DNA of 64,000 nucleotides from a virus, in IMG/VR virus record IMGVR_UViG_3300038301_000548, positions 124,001-188,000 of that record. One strand, written 5' to 3'. The notes below the pieces were generated by a model. It worked only from the letters and a program-made list of their open reading frames with translations. It searched no databases and had not been told where the DNA came from. The translations under genes were made by a program, and so were the position numbers. This document shows, one piece after another, positions 29,412 to 45,725 of this stretch (within the stretch, counting starts at the first letter, position 1; the number at the start of each line of letters is the position of its first letter).

Positions 29412-30053
29412 TTAGATAAGCTCATCTACCAATCCGTATTCTAAGCACTTTTCGGCTTCCCACCAAATATCGTGTTTTAATAGATTATCCATCTCTCTCT
29501 TTGGTATCTTGGTATGTTCCCTGTAGATATCTTTTATTTTCTTCATTAGCATTTCTGAGTTTTTCATGTCATCTTGCATTTCTTGGAACTTACCCCACAT
29601 GAGACCTGAAAGTTGGTGAACCAACATGCATGCATTCTTATGCATAAAGCGGCGTTCTCCCACACAAGACATTAAAGTTGCTGCGGAGGCTGCGCAGCCA
29701 TCAATTACTGTGTGTACTGGAACTTTAGAGTTCTTTATATAATCTACTGCTGATAAGCCTGCAAAGACCGAACCGCCGTAACTGTTTATGTGAAGTTTGA
29801 TTGGGGGCGGTGCGTACTCAAGCGGCCCTGTCTTAGACAGCATTGAAATATTCATATTAAAAATGCCTTTATTAAGCTTTAATATCTTAGGTCGCGTTAC
29901 ACCGGAATAAAAGTAAATCCTATTATGACTAAAATCTACAATGTTGTGATCTTCTGACGCGTGGCCTTTGCTTTCAGACGCATAGTCATGAGGCGTCATA
30001 CCATCCTCTTCTTCTGGACCCTCTGTTGTGGATCCCCAAAAATAATCTCTCAA
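29412..30053 (-). CDS. clpP: ClpP-like serine protease
   Basis: 213 residues. The ClpP core with catalytic Ser123 (DGCAASAATLMS), His146 (CMLVHQLSG) and Asp195 (KHDIWWEAEKCLEYGLVDEL). INSYGGSVFAGL forms the oxyanion/GG loop. The N-terminal 40 acidic residues are an extension not seen in bacterial ClpP. Phage ClpP homologues act as prohead proteases or as host-type ClpP subunits; without a scaffold next to it the role stays open. If it acts on proheads it would be a candidate for cutting the tagged cargo, but T4-like phages use the unrelated gp21 fold. Confidence 0.88.
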   Translation of the reverse strand: MRDYFWGSTTEGPEEEDGMTPHDYASESKGHASEDHNIVDFSHNRIYFYSGVTRPKILKLNKGIFNMNISMLSKTGPLEYAPPPIKLHINSYGGSVFAGLSAVDYIKNSKVPVHTVIDGCAASAATLMSCVGERRFMHKNACMLVHQLSGLMWGKFQEMQDDMKNSEMLMKKIKDIYREHTKIPKREMDNLLKHDIWWEAEKCLEYGLVDELI

Positions 30054-30627: not shown

Positions 30628-30645
30628 AATTTTTTATTAAGTTAG

Positions 30646-30719
30646 TGGGCCTCCGCGGACTTGAACCGCGAACCTGCCGGTTATGAGCCGGATGCTCTGA
30701 CCAATTGAGCTAGAGGCCC
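30646..30719 (-). tRNA. tRNA with CAU anticodon, probably tRNA-Ile2 (lysidine)
   Basis: 74-nt cloverleaf: acceptor GGGCCTC pairs with GAGGCCC, D-stem GCTC/GAGC, anticodon loop CTCATAA, T-arm CGCGG-TTCAAGT-CCGCG, discriminator A, no encoded CCA. The first pair of the anticodon stem is mismatched (T27/C43). The anticodon CAU could be Met or Ile2. The acceptor pairs C4-G69 and C5-G68 are the ones TilS is known to need in E. coli tRNA-Ile2, and a tilS gene lies 19 bp upstream, so Ile2 reading AUA is preferred. Confidence 0.88.
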
Positions 30720-30738
30720 CCACATGAACAATATACAC

Positions 30739-31344
30739 CTATTTAACATAAAGTTCAAGCAGTTTTTTTCGAATAGTTTTGCGAATTCCTGGATTTACTT
30801 TCAAAACGGCTGGTATGACGTTATGACGTATGTGATTTCTCATATGATTTGTGTGCTGGTTTGAAGGATCTTCAGTCCACGGAATGCTATGGTTCTCTGC
30901 GTATGATAGTATTGATTTTTTATCTGTCAAAAGAAAGGGCCTATATATATTTGGATCTCTTTTGTACGGAATAACTTTTCCATTTCCATGGAAACTAGAC
31001 ATAAGCCAAGTCTCTACACAGTCATCGAGGTGATGACAAGTAATAATAAAGTTACTGCGAAGCCTGTTGAAAAAAGCATATCTTTCATCCCTCCAGAATT
31101 CCTCAAGTGATCTTTTGCCTTTAAACCCCTTGATCTTACCAATAACTAGGTTTAAACTATGCTGAAATGCATAATTTTCTACAAAAGAAAGCGCTTCTTT
31201 TGAGTGAATGGTGTCGTGATCAAAATAAGCTAAGCTAACGTCTCTCTTGCCATGTGTAAGGAAATGAGAAACAACCATTGAATCGATTCCGCCGGAGCAT
31301 GCAATTGTTACCTTGTGTGGTATTTTTCCAATTATTCTTAACAT
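30739..31344 (-). CDS. tilS: tRNA(Ile)-lysidine synthase, minimal
   Basis: 201 residues. N-type ATP-pyrophosphatase with the PP-loop SGGIDS at 17-22, then DHDTIH, the TilS-typical CHHLDDCVETWLM and WTEDPSNQHTNHMRNHIRH segments. Only the catalytic N-domain is present; E. coli TilS (432 aa) has two more domains and Aquifex TilS (about 317) one more. It adds lysine to C34 of tRNA-Ile2, changing both charging and codon reading from AUG to AUA. Directly upstream of the CAU tRNA. Confidence 0.9.
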   Translation of the reverse strand: MLRIIGKIPHKVTIACSGGIDSMVVSHFLTHGKRDVSLAYFDHDTIHSKEALSFVENYAFQHSLNLVIGKIKGFKGKRSLEEFWRDERYAFFNRLRSNFIITCHHLDDCVETWLMSSFHGNGKVIPYKRDPNIYRPFLLTDKKSILSYAENHSIPWTEDPSNQHTNHMRNHIRHNVIPAVLKVNPGIRKTIRKKLLELYVK

Positions 31345-31382
31345 TTTAAAATTATATCAAATAACTATAAAAATATCAAATA

Positions 31383-32753: not shown

Positions 32754-33581
32754 TTACCTTACACGCAGGTTAGAAAAAGCAGATTCTCCCCCTGGGAGCC
32801 AATTACGATCAACATCGCCGGGGATGCCTTGAATGCTGCCAGAGCCAGTCCACTGCCATATTGACCAATCATTCCAATTTCCTAAACGATCTTTTTTAAT
32901 CCCTGACTTAAAGGCTTTTTGGCTATAGTAGGCATGCCATAATTCATACTCGTCCAAGCCAGTTGTATCCCTGTTCAAGTGATACTTCACCATGTTCCCT
33001 CCAGTATAAAGGATTGGCTTGGTGCCAAGCTTCTTCTCAGTTTGCCTTAGAAACGTCAAAACCCAGTCTCTTAGTGAGTTTGCGGTGTGGGTGCCGGCAG
33101 TTTCGAAGTCTAAAACTGGTCTCATACCACCAGTGAAAACTGGGCAGTTTTTTGCAAAATTCTCTATTTCCTTGTGGGGGTCATCATGCAGATCTGGTCT
33201 TGCGAAGTGATAGCCGCCGGCGGGTATATTGACTGACTTAGCTCCGGAGAAATGTGATTTAATTGTTTTCTGTACATGACTATTACCCTCTGTTGTTTTG
33301 ATCCAACAGAAATTAGCCAGGCCTGATTGTTTTAAGGTATTCCAATCTATATTCTTCTGATAGGCACTAATGTCTATCCCTGCGTAGATTTCTATTGCCA
33401 TGGAGGCTCGAGTTGCTGGTCCGACTTTAGAATCTATCGTAAGGCCATTTTCAGATTGGTATTGCTTTACTGCTTGTTTTGTTATGGGGCCAAAATCGCC
33501 GTCTGGTTCGAGATTCAAGACTTGCTGAATTCTCTTTACTTCTTGGCCTTTACTTCCTTCTTCATGAACCCAATATTTCAT
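32754..33581 (-). CDS. GH25 muramidase with peptidoglycan-binding domain (endolysin)
   Basis: 275 residues. Peptidoglycan-binding type 1 domain at 1-62 (GSKGQEVKRIQQVLNLEPDGDFGPIT). GH25 domain from 66 with AGIDISAYQ (Asp70), FCWIKTTEG, AGGYHFARP and PVLDFE (Asp158, Glu160), the catalytic acidic residues on the barrel strands. It cleaves MurNAc-GlcNAc bonds. No export signal, so release would need a holin, which I did not identify. Ends 24 bp before the M74 gene. Confidence 0.9.
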   Translation of the reverse strand: MKYWVHEEGSKGQEVKRIQQVLNLEPDGDFGPITKQAVKQYQSENGLTIDSKVGPATRASMAIEIYAGIDISAYQKNIDWNTLKQSGLANFCWIKTTEGNSHVQKTIKSHFSGAKSVNIPAGGYHFARPDLHDDPHKEIENFAKNCPVFTGGMRPVLDFETAGTHTANSLRDWVLTFLRQTEKKLGTKPILYTGGNMVKYHLNRDTTGLDEYELWHAYYSQKAFKSGIKKDRLGNWNDWSIWQWTGSGSIQGIPGDVDRNWLPGGESAFSNLRVR

Positions 33582-34388: not shown

Positions 34389-35417
34389 TCAAATACCAGC
34401 CCAGCTTTTGAATCTTGATAACATATTTGAATATATCGAACCCTCTTCTTTGTCCGGTTTACAACCTTTCGGATATAGGGGTTGACCATTTATCTTTTGA
34501 GCGCATGGAAGTTGGGCCCTTGCGTAAGCCATTAGTGCTGATTTCCACATTGACAACCCTCTAACTAACTCATCCTTATTTTCAATCTTTTTATGAAGAG
34601 CTGCGACGGAGTCAGAGTCTCCTTCTGATTCTGCTTTTTTTGTTTCTTCATAATAATCCTCTATGGAGAATTCTGATGTCTTCTTTATGTTTTCTATATT
34701 CTTGTTTACCACATCCTCAAATGTTAAATTAAACCTCTTCGCCTCTTCGTAGTATCCTCGAGCGTGGGCTTCGACTTCATGAGAACTCATATAATAGCTC
34801 AAATCTTTCCCGAGTTCAACTGTTTTCGAGCTGGCGGTGACAGCCTGGCGCGCATGAGTTAATTCATGAGCTAATGCTTCTGTAATTTTGATTCGGATGT
34901 TCTCTAGTTGTTTGCGGAAAAGAGCTACAGTACTTACTTCTAACTCATTGATTATAATTTTTATATTTAATTCTGTCCTTTCTAATGAATATTCAGAATT
35001 TGCATCAACAAATATTTGATCTTTTGAGCCAAAACTGCCGGCGACCACAAAAGGTCGCGAATCATGTTCGCTGCTTCTTAAAATTACCCTTAAATTAAAG
35101 ACCTCTATTGGGGATATTCCAACTTTTCTGTTGGAGCGTCGCTGGCGCCCTCGATAATCAGAAGATGAACCTGAGTACTCGTCAGGCAGGCCATCCTGAA
35201 AACCGTCTGCATAAGGGTCTTTTCCAAGTTTCCAACTCCAATTGTTATACTGGATATTAAAGGCTTCCCTTAGTGTGTCTTCTGGGTTTGAGTTCTTTGT
35301 TTTGTGGGTCAAAAGAGTCATGATAGCTCGCGACCATGTGGTGACTAGGCTTCGGACCTGGGTCTCGGTTATAATTTGCTCTTCAAACCCTTTCCAATTT
35401 TCCATTATAAGTTTCAT
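34389..35417 (-). CDS. Tagged zinc metallopeptidase (HELTH)
   Basis: 342 residues. It opens with the class A tag MKLIMENWKGFEEQIITE. A zincin motif follows at H184-E185-x-x-H188 (TEALAHELTHARQ), and SSHEVEAHARGYYEEA about 30 residues later offers a third ligand as in gluzincin-like phage peptidases. Two Cys near the end. Preceded by a cassette-junction repeat and the ACTATTTA element; no Shine-Dalgarno is visible before the ATG. Probably a head-packaged cargo protease acting on a host protein after injection (inference). Confidence 0.85.
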   Translation of the reverse strand: MKLIMENWKGFEEQIITETQVRSLVTTWSRAIMTLLTHKTKNSNPEDTLREAFNIQYNNWSWKLGKDPYADGFQDGLPDEYSGSSSDYRGRQRRSNRKVGISPIEVFNLRVILRSSEHDSRPFVVAGSFGSKDQIFVDANSEYSLERTELNIKIIINELEVSTVALFRKQLENIRIKITEALAHELTHARQAVTASSKTVELGKDLSYYMSSHEVEAHARGYYEEAKRFNLTFEDVVNKNIENIKKTSEFSIEDYYEETKKAESEGDSDSVAALHKKIENKDELVRGLSMWKSALMAYARAQLPCAQKINGQPLYPKGCKPDKEEGSIYSNMLSRFKSWAGI

Positions 35418-35442: not shown

Positions 35443-35469
35443 AAAAGTTGGTGGAGGTGGCGGGAGTTA
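35443..35469 (-). repeat. Cassette junction repeat, copy 1
   Basis: Plus-strand core GTTGGTGGAGGTGGCGGGAG; on the coding strand it reads CTCCCGCCACCTCCACCAAC and begins inside the stop codon of the 35467 gene. One of seven copies between 35.4 and 39.4 kb. It contains CACCTCC, identical to the anti-Shine-Dalgarno end of 16S rRNA. Confidence 0.85.
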
Positions 35470-35784
35470 TGCTAAATTTCTGTCTCCAAGATTGCCCTTT
35501 AGGCGCTGCAGCATTATATTAACAATCAGGAATTTTTCTAACTCTGGATTTCCGGAGGAATATTTTTTTGCTAATTCTTCTGGTGGGGTGGCGGAGGCTA
35601 TTTCTCCAGATTTCTGCATGGCGACCGTCACTTCGTATGCATCATCTAACCAATCAGGCGCGATGTCATGTTGGTCTTCCATCTCCTGCTGTGACCAACG
35701 GCGCCCAAGGTCGTATTTCTGCTGATCTGAATGCTCCTCTGTTACGAACTTTCTCCAGTTTTCCATTATAAGTTTATGTTTCAT
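35467..35784 (-). CDS. Tagged cargo protein (105 aa)
   Basis: Starts MKHKLIMENWRKFVTEE, class A tag with candidate cleavage after VTE. The remaining 85 residues are helical and acidic (WSQQEMEDQHDIAPDWLDDAYE) with no recognised domain. Bracketed by junction repeats on both sides, with ACTACTTA 5 nt before the ATG. A packaged small protein, like the T4 internal proteins, is the best inference. Confidence 0.8.
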   Translation of the reverse strand: MKHKLIMENWRKFVTEEHSDQQKYDLGRRWSQQEMEDQHDIAPDWLDDAYEVTVAMQKSGEIASATPPEELAKKYSSGNPELEKFLIVNIMLQRLKGNLGDRNLA

Positions 35785-35810: not shown

Positions 35811-35892
35811 AAAGTTGGTGGACAAAAGGTATACAGCTAGAGCCAGGTGTATACCTTTTGTTACGGTGTGGATTTGGAGGTGGCGGGAGTTA
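35811..35892 (-). repeat. Cassette junction repeat, copy 2, split by hairpin insert
   Basis: The two halves of the junction repeat (35811-35821 and 35876-35892) are separated by a 54-bp insert. The insert begins with a perfect 13-bp inverted repeat, ACAAAAGGTATAC at 35822-35834 and its complement at 35849-35861, with a 14-nt loop; it could fold as a strong terminator-like hairpin on either strand. Confidence 0.8.
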
Positions 35893-36552
35893 GTTGGCAC
35901 TTGTAATGCGGGGGTCGCTATATGTGTCTTTTATCTCATCTTCGGCCTTTTCAGCTGCATAATCTTTGCCTGATTTATCTGTTCCGGATGTTGAAATAAT
36001 TTTTGTTATTGCCTCTATCTTGTTTAGCCAACTAATATTTATTTTCTTTCCCTGGGTAATTAATCTCTTTTGCAATTTTGCCGCGCGTGGATTTATTTTG
36101 GGATCCCCCCCAGCATAACGAATAGACATTATAACTGCTTGGTGAAGATCTTGAAACGCGCTTCGATTGTGTTTTCCCAATGTGGCTCTCATACTGTCAA
36201 GAAGAACGCGATGGCTGCAGAATTCTTCCTGGCCGGGTGAAGTGGAACACTCACTATTGCGCGCAGAGGTAAGATCTGATAATGTTGTATAGTAGGCATT
36301 ATCTCCTTTGTATAAAGCACTAAAATCAGATTCTTGTTTTGTTTTGATTTTGCCCGTGCGCGTTTCCTCTTCCATCTGATATATTCTAACAGTGGCTGGG
36401 TTGAATTTTTTCCCTTTTACAAAATTCTCGTACCATACTGCAATTAATATATACTTTTCATTTTCAGACATCGCTCTTGCATAAGATGAGTGCTTCGCCT
36501 CTTCCTCTGCTAGGAACTTCTTCCAGTTTTCCATTATAAGTTTATGTTTCAT
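35890..36552 (-). CDS. Tagged cargo protein (220 aa)
   Basis: Starts MKHKLIMENWKKFLAEEEA, the closest match to the T4 capsid-targeting plan, with candidate cleavage after LAE. The rest is soluble, with a helical C-terminal half (SWLNKIEAITKIISTSGTDKSGKDYAAEKAEDEI). No domain recognised. Shares its 5' flank and first 13 codons almost base for base with the 35467 gene, while the bodies are unrelated, as expected of exchanged cassettes. Confidence 0.8.
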   Translation of the reverse strand: MKHKLIMENWKKFLAEEEAKHSSYARAMSENEKYILIAVWYENFVKGKKFNPATVRIYQMEEETRTGKIKTKQESDFSALYKGDNAYYTTLSDLTSARNSECSTSPGQEEFCSHRVLLDSMRATLGKHNRSAFQDLHQAVIMSIRYAGGDPKINPRAAKLQKRLITQGKKINISWLNKIEAITKIISTSGTDKSGKDYAAEKAEDEIKDTYSDPRITSAN

Positions 36553-37940: not shown

Positions 37941-39347
37941 TTACTTGTCGATATTTTTCGTTGGGCGAACGATTATGTTTGGTCTGTTTCTTGTCGACAG
38001 CCGCGGCAGAAGGTGTACATGAGTAGTCCGAGCATCCAAGACCGCGACGACGCCTACATCGGGAGTCGGGTGAAATGGTACCGAGCTAACATATTCTACA
38101 GCGTGGCTTTTAACACCACGGGCGTGGGATCTTGATGGGACATTCATTCGAACGGGGGTGACCAGATTTTTTGCAAAAGCTTCTGGCCGCTTGCCGCGTG
38201 GGGTTCTATAAACATTAGTTATATGGCTTACCATATTATCTGGGCCCCCGCCAGTGGCTCCTTTGGGACCCGGATTGGTGAATATCCGGCTTGAAAAGAT
38301 CCTTCTTGCTATCTCTAGAGAAGTGAGTCCTTCTTCCGCAGATGAAATCTTTCCAAAAGTAGGTCTCGCGGGATTCAAAAGGAACCCTTTTTCTCTAATT
38401 GCGTAATTAACATCTAACATTGTTTGGCCTTTCGATGCGTATCGCACTTTGTGAATATAATAATCGTATGAAGGATCTAAAACTTCGGAGAGATTATCCA
38501 TAAGAACGATGTCCTCTTGAGCAATATCTAGCCGGTCTTTTCTCTGTGGGCGGCCACCGGCGCGTGGACCGTATCTGGGCGTTGGCGCCATGGGTGGCGC
38601 GCCGGAGAAAAAAGCGCCACCGGGTTGAATACCATCTGCCCTGTACATTCCATAATTTTCGCGAGGGACTTTTTTTGACATCTTAATTTCGCGGTTTGCG
38701 GCGTCCACTTTCGGCCGGCCGGGTTCACGGCCCCATGAATGCCTCATCGATTTCGCCAACTTTGTTTTAGAAAAAACCTTGCTAACTAATCCCAGGATCC
38801 TGCTGATACTTACAGAAAGGGCGCCGATTCCGGCACTGATGGCGATTTGTTCGACAAGTGCTTGAGTGGCTTCCTCGATTTTTTCAAACGGAGTTAGATA
38901 AGTTTCGCCCTGATAACTTTGGTTTTTAGTTTTAGTGGAATCTCCAAAAGCCATCCCGTCAAAGCGTCGCGGCGTAGATAAAGTGGACCCACGCTGGACG
39001 TCACGCGTAAAATGGAAGTCTAACCAACCCGGGTTTTCGTCTTCAATAGCTTTTATTTGAGGTACCTCCTTAAAAAATTTTATTGTTTCCGATTGGGCGC
39101 GCCAAGTATCCATATCAGTAGCCAGTAACTTATCATAATAAATTTTAATCTTTCTGATAAGGCTGTTATACCACTTTTGATACTCCAAGGTTTTTTTTTC
39201 TTTTTTTTCTTTTTCTTTTTTTTCTTCTTCTTCTTCTTCTCTCTCACTTTTTTGCTTCTGTCGTTTGTGGTAAGCGCGGCGCGCCGGGTCTTCTTTAAGG
39301 ATTTCAGATCCAACATAGGCGCGCCAAATTTCCATTATAAGTTTCAT
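37941..39347 (-). CDS. Tagged cargo protein (468 aa), possible effector
   Basis: Starts MKLIMEIWRAYVGSEILKE, class A tag. Residues 25-55 are a Glu/Lys run coded by a long purine tract, making a charged helix or linker. A short hydrophobic helix follows (ALVEQIAISAGIGALSVSISRILGLVSKVF, about 165-195), then a Gly/Pro/Arg-rich hinge and a C-terminal globular domain of about 180 residues beginning YDYYIHKVRYASKGQ. Large, tagged and multi-domain, it occupies the place of T4 Alt, but I see no clear ADP-ribosyltransferase triad. Confidence 0.78.
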   Translation of the reverse strand: MKLIMEIWRAYVGSEILKEDPARRAYHKRQKQKSEREEEEEEKKEKEKKEKKTLEYQKWYNSLIRKIKIYYDKLLATDMDTWRAQSETIKFFKEVPQIKAIEDENPGWLDFHFTRDVQRGSTLSTPRRFDGMAFGDSTKTKNQSYQGETYLTPFEKIEEATQALVEQIAISAGIGALSVSISRILGLVSKVFSKTKLAKSMRHSWGREPGRPKVDAANREIKMSKKVPRENYGMYRADGIQPGGAFFSGAPPMAPTPRYGPRAGGRPQRKDRLDIAQEDIVLMDNLSEVLDPSYDYYIHKVRYASKGQTMLDVNYAIREKGFLLNPARPTFGKISSAEEGLTSLEIARRIFSSRIFTNPGPKGATGGGPDNMVSHITNVYRTPRGKRPEAFAKNLVTPVRMNVPSRSHARGVKSHAVEYVSSVPFHPTPDVGVVAVLDARTTHVHLLPRLSTRNRPNIIVRPTKNIDK

Positions 39348-39402: not shown

Positions 39403-39426
39403 AAAACTTGTGGAGGTGGCGGGAGT
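39403..39426 (-). repeat. Cassette junction repeat, copy 7
   Basis: Full copy with ACTTG instead of GTTGG at the outer end. It overlaps the TGA stop of the 39426 gene by its first bases. It is the last copy in this direction; none is seen beyond 39.4 kb. Confidence 0.8.
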
Positions 39427-39866
39427 CATTCTATGTTGTCTAAGTCAATAAGCCAAACCTCTACAGGGTAGTTAACATCTCTACAATGTTGCATCCCCAT
39501 CATGGTCAACCTAGTGTTACCAGCAATAAGAGTATATTCCCCATTAACTTTTTTAACTATTGGCAACTCTATTTCTCCAGAATCAAACATTTTGCCTACG
39601 CGTTCCTGTCTATCTGATGTGAGATTTTGATACTCTTCTTCCATTTCTTTGCAGATATCCGAAAACTGTGTGTTCTTAATTTGGCCTGCTATTGGTAGGG
39701 CATCTATTACTTTCCCCTTTGAGGATATTTCTATCCAAGATTCTTTTGTTGGAAAATCTTCACTATGATGAACTCTTGCTTCATCCCACTCAAAATTAAA
39801 GTTTGGGTCTCGAAAACTTATAGATTCGTTTAAATATCTTCTCCAGCTTTCCATTATAAGTTTCAT
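39426..39866 (-). CDS. Tagged ParB/Srx-fold protein
   Basis: 146 residues, class A tag MKLIMESWRRYLNES (candidate cut after LNE). The C-terminal half IELPIVKKVNGEYTLIAGNTRLTMM matches the ParB/sulfiredoxin-type nuclease/CTPase fold, with the G-N-T-R-L in place of the ParB G-x-R-R/H-R-x box. Such folds act as nucleases or nucleotide-binding modules. The ATG overlaps the stop of the upstream HTH gene (ATGA). A packaged DNA-acting protein is inferred. Confidence 0.8.
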   Translation of the reverse strand: MKLIMESWRRYLNESISFRDPNFNFEWDEARVHHSEDFPTKESWIEISSKGKVIDALPIAGQIKNTQFSDICKEMEEEYQNLTSDRQERVGKMFDSGEIELPIVKKVNGEYTLIAGNTRLTMMGMQHCRDVNYPVEVWLIDLDNIE

Positions 39867-44717: not shown

Positions 44718-45725
44718 CTAAATGTATTCTTTATCTCCGGAAAAGAATATTTCTATGTCTTCATTAACTAACATATGTAGTTTTGTAGTTAGCCAGAATT
44801 CTATATCGTCGCGGGAATCAAATTCTAAGATATGTGGACCATCATAAACACACCATTTTCCAACCTCGTCTAAAATATCCATTTTATTGAATACTATGTT
44901 ATTAGTACCGTTCATTCTTGTGGCCATCTTTAGTAGATCAAAGTCTAGCCAGTTTATTTGGCGCGCACGACCGGTTGTCGCTCCATATTCTTCCCCTAAA
45001 TTCCTAATTTGTTCGAATTCGTCATAAGGGCCTTCAAAGTCCTTAGCTCCTACATAGGTCTCATAAATCTTAGCAACGCCCCAAATATCCCTAATGGCTT
45101 TTGGAGGAACACCGTTCAAAAGTGCAGATCCCACTGTGCAATGAGAAGAGGTAACATAAGGGTAGTCACCCCAGTCAATATCCAGCCCAAAACCTTGGGC
45201 GCCCTCAAATAGAATCTCTATATTTTCAAATTCTTCATTTTCATACAATTCTAAATATAAATTAATCAGATAATTGCTTAGTCGTGGGTCTTCGAGGGCC
45301 CGTATTCCTTTTCTGGCATACTTATCCCTATAGGCCGGACCATTTCCTCTCCTAGTCGTGCCTATTTCTGTATCTTTTGAGTCTTGAATCCGATGAAAAT
45401 CAGTAATTAAGTGAGCATTGGTAGAGACTTTTACCAACTCTTTTGCTGGTATACCAGCTTCTTCAAGTTGTTCAATCTCTTCTAAAAATGTCTCGACATG
45501 GACAACACAACCTGGTCCAATGATCGATTTTATGCCAAAGAAAACACCACAAGGTATATGATGTGTGACAAATTTAACACCTTCATGATATATTGTATGA
45601 CCAGCGTTACAGCCGCCGTTATATCTTATCACGTGAGTATAATCTTTGTCTTTACACAGGGCGTGCGCAATTTTACCTTTTCCACAATCTCCATACTGAA
45701 GATCTACAACTATGTCCGCTATCAT
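44718..45725 (-). CDS. purA: Adenylosuccinate synthetase-like enzyme (PurA type)
   Basis: 335 residues, shorter than bacterial PurA (about 430) and close to archaeal and phage forms. VVDLQYGDCGKGK has catalytic Asp13, NAGHT the His43 general acid, then IGTTRRGNGPAY, ILFEGAQGFGLDIDWGDYPYVTSSH, and FNKMD, the N-K-x-D guanine-binding motif for GTP. It would join Asp to IMP. Phage PurZ enzymes of 2-aminoadenine genomes normally have Ser at the Asp13 position, so a PurA-type reaction is favoured. Confidence 0.85.
   Translation of the reverse strand: MIADIVVDLQYGDCGKGKIAHALCKDKDYTHVIRYNGGCNAGHTIYHEGVKFVTHHIPCGVFFGIKSIIGPGCVVHVETFLEEIEQLEEAGIPAKELVKVSTNAHLITDFHRIQDSKDTEIGTTRRGNGPAYRDKYARKGIRALEDPRLSNYLINLYLELYENEEFENIEILFEGAQGFGLDIDWGDYPYVTSSHCTVGSALLNGVPPKAIRDIWGVAKIYETYVGAKDFEGPYDEFEQIRNLGEEYGATTGRARQINWLDFDLLKMATRMNGTNNIVFNKMDILDEVGKWCVYDGPHILEFDSRDDIEFWLTTKLHMLVNEDIEIFFSGDKEYI

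Follow-up and report, generated by a model that had tools for sequence, protein, structure and literature searches.

The stretch of DNA analysed here (the window, 64 kb) corresponds to bases 124001–188000 of a 190,698-base virus record from a large uncultivated phage. On its minus strand, a gene for a 201-residue protein assigned to the TilS family (tilS) is followed by a tRNA gene with the anticodon CAU in the same direction, across a gap of 19 nt (Table 1). The original prediction had placed a TilS of this length directly upstream of a CAU tRNA, and this is the arrangement found. The whole record contains three tRNAs only: tRNA-Lys(UUU), tRNA-Arg(UCU) and the CAU tRNA. Each gene of the pair is preceded by a promoter-like site. 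The −35 element of the tRNA site lies within the last codons of tilS, and TTGAAM spaced by 17–18 nt from a −10-like hexamer is present in 20/20 linked loci of the window's clade; because this −35 element coincides with conserved codons, its conservation is not independent evidence. The −10 element of the tilS site ends 6 nt before the ATG (exactly 6 nt in 10/21 clade loci), which suggests that the putative promoter yields a leaderless tilS mRNA.

Table 1 Features of the tilS–tRNA locus, in window coordinates
Feature	Position	Strand	Remarks
tilS	30739..31344	−	201 aa, ATG start; N-terminal PP-loop catalytic domain only, without CTD1/CTD2
PP-loop ATP-binding motif SGGIDS, TilS residues 17–22	31279..31296	−	S17, G18, G19, D21 and S22 invariant in 45 phage TilS
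tRNA-Ile2(CAU), predicted class	30645..30719	−	A73 at 30646; 3′ CCA incompletely encoded (ACT)
Promoter-like site for tRNA, TTGAAC-17-TATATT	30730..30758	−	Consensus match only
Promoter-like site for tilS, TTGATA-17-TATAAT, extended TG	31351..31379	−	Consensus match only

Neighbouring minus-strand genes encode a ClpP-like protease (29412–30053), a GH25 lysozyme with a peptidoglycan-binding domain (32754–33581) and a protein with a strong match to the phage adenylosuccinate synthetase-like (2-amino type) family (44718–45725); the last might point to modified phage DNA. In relatives, a one-piece tmRNA is located 1.3–3.8 kb upstream of tilS (L008:3384-3693, L009:943-1250 and L017:3124-3429), with tags such as ANDDVEIFEDFALAA; unlike these relatives, the 64-kb window contains no tmRNA.

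The 201-residue protein matched the TIGR02432 model (lysidine_TilS_N) over residues 11–178 with 122.9 bits, above the cut-off of 93.6, and PF01171 with an E value of 1.5e-33. Its best sequence matches in the PDB were 1wy5, 1ni5 and 3a2k, the TilS of Aquifex, E. coli and Geobacillus, respectively. A Foldseek search with the AlphaFold model (pLDDT 94.9) returned TilS 2e21 as the top match (E 5.9e-15), with 1wy5, 2e89, 1ni5 and 3a2k also among the best (1wy5, 1ni5 and 3a2k in the top six), and the structural match comprised the catalytic domain of the solved TilS only. The SGGxDS ATP motif of TilS is present as SGGIDS, and 30 residues are invariant among 45 phage TilS with identities down to 45%, including the PP-loop residues S17, G18, G19, D21 and S22 as well as H104/H105 and D108/E111. 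TtcA, the tRNA 2-thiocytidine 32 synthetase, was rejected as an assignment at 27.3 bits against a family cut-off of 272, and ThiI and QueC-like assignments were likewise far weaker than TilS. Together, the domain cut-off and the predicted fold identify the protein as a TilS family member, for which lysidine synthesis is the predicted activity.

The phage enzyme stops 23 residues past the TilS_N match, and its sampled phage relatives are 189–212 aa long. TilS of type I (E. coli, Geobacillus) contain the C-terminal domains CTD1 and CTD2, and those of type II (Aquifex, Mycobacterium smegmatis) CTD1 only; CTD2 touches the acceptor stem, and E. coli-type TilS uses its C-terminal domains for distal recognition (PMC12514573). 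The phage enzyme shares the PP-loop catalytic domain, motifs and fold of both types but ends at the catalytic domain and has neither of these tRNA-contacting domains, and it is therefore a variant of the family that belongs to neither type. The TilS known so far have one or two further domains at the C-terminus, so a catalytic domain on its own may work poorly or require a partner. Nearly all of the bacterial TilS relatives scanned have 91–253 residues beyond the catalytic domain; the exceptions were a fragment at a contig end, one protein with 47 such residues and a phage-like contig binned as Halobacteriovorax. In a tree built by a quick method, the phage TilS occupied one side of a branch with a support of 100. 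Seemingly full-length TilS in the phage collection were, judged as a set, largely short or unannotated records that resemble host DNA, and they were set aside. The contig binned as Halobacteriovorax encodes a phage-type TilS without C-terminal domains at 45% identity (L223:3001-3600) and gives a weak hint to the host range of this phage group; searches by PhoH and by the tmRNA of the relatives found no close cultivated relative from which a host could be inferred.

The tRNA scored 67.8 bits against the Rfam tRNA model and folds as a cloverleaf (z −3.5). A tRNA-Met, elongator or initiator, that happens to lie beside tilS would account for the CAU anticodon and for the tRNA-Met label given by ARAGORN, but the body of the phage tRNA is of another kind. 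The acceptor stem (GGGCCTC/GAGGCCC) is paired at G1-C72 and contains G3-C70 together with C4-G69 and C5-G68, both of which the original prediction had reported, in place of the elongator pairs U4-A69 and A5-U68; the unpaired 1-72 and the three G-C pairs at 29–31 of initiators are absent. Outside the D-loop elements G16, U20 and U21, the bacterial Ile identity set comprises A73, C4-G69, U12-A23, C29-G41, A35, U36, A37 and A38 (PMC9976931), all of which are found in the phage tRNA with its loop CUCAUAA; C29-G41 is variable among relatives. Compared bacterial CAU tRNAs, whose classes were assigned from sequence type except in E. coli, have acceptors of the form CGCGGG... (initiator), GGCTACG or AGCGGCG (elongator Met) and GGGCCTA, GGACCTT or GGTCCTA (Ile2 of Salinibius, Sporosarcina and Arenibacter, respectively), and the phage GGGCCTC groups with the Ile2 acceptors. 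Its best matches in E. coli are tRNA-Ile as judged from their annotation. Two of the E. coli TilS determinants are kept in the window's clade (C4-G69 in 21/21 loci, C5-G68 in 20/21); the third, G27-U43, is replaced by U27/C43. Among bacteria, conservation of the stem determinants is confined to the gammaproteobacteria (PMC12069591), so G27-U43 does not define the tRNA-Ile2 class. These sequence features support an assignment of the tRNA to the Ile2 class and make a tRNA-Met highly improbable.

The pair is conserved well beyond the window. A scan with the phage TilS yielded 17 viral loci; in the 15 that are 61–73% identical, tilS is without exception directly followed by a CAU tRNA. A broader scan detected relatives encoded in 472 viral stretches, of which the best 80 were retrieved. 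Among 63 distinct tilS loci with enough flank, a CAU tRNA lies no more than 100 nt from tilS in 29 and is missing from this range in 34, some of the latter having none in the whole contig (the contigs are fragments). In the window's clade the tRNA lies 9–25 nt downstream of tilS in 20/21 distinct loci, and 633 nt downstream in the sole exception. Outside this clade, the same order is seen in L060, L087, L090 and L099 and the reverse order in L061, L075, L094, L100 and L133, with the tRNA 15–90 nt upstream of tilS in four loci; on the tree, the linkage label changes state nine times. All 27 tRNAs within 100 nt of tilS have the CAU anticodon, compared with 4/31 of those farther away in the same loci (Fisher p 1e-12, relatedness ignored), and the bias holds outside the window's clade (8/8 versus 3/30; p 3e-6, relatedness ignored). 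Relatives of 158–193 kb encode 1–5 tRNAs each, with a CAU tRNA in every set; in a 175-kb relative it is the single tRNA gene. As many phages that are only distantly related share the pairing, the tRNA and TilS very probably act as one working unit that would let the phage use AUA freely.

These patterns also bear on two readings in which the enzyme and the linked tRNA are not partners. In one, host tRNAs are the main targets of the phage TilS, which either tops up tRNA-Ile2 or rewrites tRNA-Met(CAU) so that host translation is shifted or shut off, and the linked tRNA is secondary. Such an enzyme, lacking the domains for distal recognition, could be loose in specificity, E. coli Met and Ile2 tRNAs have the loop CUCAUAA in common, and many tilS phages have no CAU tRNA nearby. 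We consider this unlikely, given that the pairing recurs, involves CAU tRNAs exclusively and is seen in either gene order, and that the phage itself has to decode AUG. In the other, the host TilS lysidinylates the linked tRNA, as presumed in T4-like phages without tilS, and the phage enzyme is redundant, regulatory or inactive. Among 119 sampled viral loci with a tRNA of the same pattern, tilS is present in the fetched stretch of 20 and absent from that of 99, so this Ile2-type tRNA often travels without the enzyme; C4-G69 and C5-G68 fit an E. coli-type host TilS; and k2C34 has been measured on a vibriophage tRNA, according to a review (PMC13191261). Against a dispensable phage enzyme stand the catalytic motifs kept across the divergent clade and the repeated changes of linkage state, always involving CAU tRNAs, and we regard this reading as very unlikely. 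All three alternatives, including a tRNA-Met, are less likely than a phage enzyme that serves the phage tRNA.

AUA is the commonest isoleucine codon of the 64-kb window, with 497 of 1167 Ile codons (42.6%; 29.4 per thousand), above the 38.6% expected from the third-base composition of fourfold sites; for E. coli, AUA usage is listed as 4.9 (PMC12514573). Loci with a downstream-linked CAU tRNA have an AUA share of 0.424 (expected 0.393), and tilS phages with no CAU tRNA nearby one of 0.312 (expected 0.418), a difference to which the window's clade contributes most. In most other tilS phages, some linked ones included, AUA is used well below composition. High AUA use is thus mainly a property of the window's clade and is confounded by ancestry. 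In the tilS genes of linked phages, AUA codons occupy the same types of alignment column as AUU and AUC, and AUA therefore most likely encodes isoleucine. The AUA noted earlier inside the tag AAA CTT ATA ATG is borne out: the minus strand has five copies of it, each in frame where a gene starts. The five proteins with this tag have the common N-terminus MK(HK)LIME-x-W (34389–35417, 35467–35784, 35890–36552, 37941–39347 and 39426–39866, all on the minus strand); its LIME resembles an LxE site of the T4-type prohead protease, and by this analogy the proteins could be capsid-targeted internal head proteins.

C4-G69 and C5-G68 had been put forward as TilS determinants; this holds for E. coli-type TilS but should not be presumed for the phage enzyme, because E. 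coli-type TilS reads these pairs through domains that the phage TilS lacks, and in two further phage lineages (L090 and L099) the linked tRNA has G4-C69/G5-C68 instead. The two pairs are good evidence of the Ile2 class and would suit IleRS and possibly a host TilS. The missing domains are those that touch the tRNA at sites distant from the anticodon, and we therefore infer that the phage TilS recognizes mainly the anticodon arm. We tentatively suggest, as an idea that may well prove wrong, that phages harbour a third architectural class of TilS, without C-terminal domains, reading the anticodon arm only and tied to its own tRNA by linkage, the tRNA body then being free to drift.

CAU tRNAs whose variable arm is long and class II-like occur beside or near the tilS of a sister clade (L075:3825-3910, L100:3899-3984, L058:3014-3097 and L098:2891-2973). 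In L061 and L094 the tRNA, likewise just upstream of tilS, has an ordinary body, and its acceptor and T arms are similar to those of the long-arm tRNAs. AUA is under-used in these loci. Reassignment of AUA to leucine in the phages with class II-like CAU tRNAs is unsupported: the few AUA codons in their tilS (7 usable) align to Ile columns, not Leu columns.

The evidence is best explained by a two-gene phage lysidine module, in which a phage TilS and a phage tRNA-Ile2 jointly serve AUA, and we hold this to be likely. The phage tRNA-Ile2 would be transcribed with a CAU anticodon; the minimal, catalytic-domain TilS would activate C34 with ATP and join lysine to it; and with the resulting LAU anticodon, the tRNA would receive isoleucine from the host IleRS and read AUA. 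The phage would thereby contribute its own substrate and its own enzyme capacity for AUA, without relying on how abundant or how specific the host TilS is. The sequences show the identities of the genes, their domain content, the class of the tRNA, the conserved and recurrent pairing and the use of AUA; we infer the catalysis, the charging by host IleRS, the role of the linked tRNA as main substrate and the selective reason. That the phage supplies an AUA-reading tRNA together with the enzyme that lysidinylates it, as first proposed for this locus, is supported by the family assignment, the identity elements of the tRNA, the conserved and recurrent linkage and the AUA use.

Both components have precedents in phages. 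TilS was reported in 2019 in the Pseudomonas jumbo phages MIJ3 and PA5oct; these proteins are of the same length class and 43% identical to that of the window, but the tRNA genes lie >5 kb from tilS, the CAU tRNAs are annotated as tRNA-Met and no pairing is described (PMC6892783). Phage-borne TilS has also been noted in pelagimyophages (PMC7029224) and in the Ralstonia phage RsoM2USA (PMC8504454), likewise with no tRNA pairing described; the latter protein has 349 aa, which shows that some phage TilS are larger than the minimal form. In T4-like phages, a tRNA-Ile(CAU) was predicted in 2006 to be lysidine-modified; it is a phage tRNA-Ile2 as in the window, but no phage tilS is described beside it and the host enzyme is presumed to act (PMC1524935). 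In the literature searched, whose scope excluded most subscription papers, we found no description of the tilS–tRNA gene pair or of a TilS without the C-terminal domain. Phage TilS, and phage tRNA-Ile2 since T4, were thus known before; what is new is the conservation of the two genes as a pair and a TilS clade, confined to phages, without the C-terminal domain.

Known TilS separate tRNA-Ile2 from tRNA-Met partly via their C-terminal domains, and a natural, conserved TilS without these domains would reveal the catalytic domain's own capacity and the basis of Ile/Met fidelity. Where a phage tRNA that adjoins tilS is annotated as tRNA-Met, it should be treated as a candidate tRNA-Ile2. Together, these results suggest that phages carry a tRNA along with the modification enzyme predicted to switch its identity.
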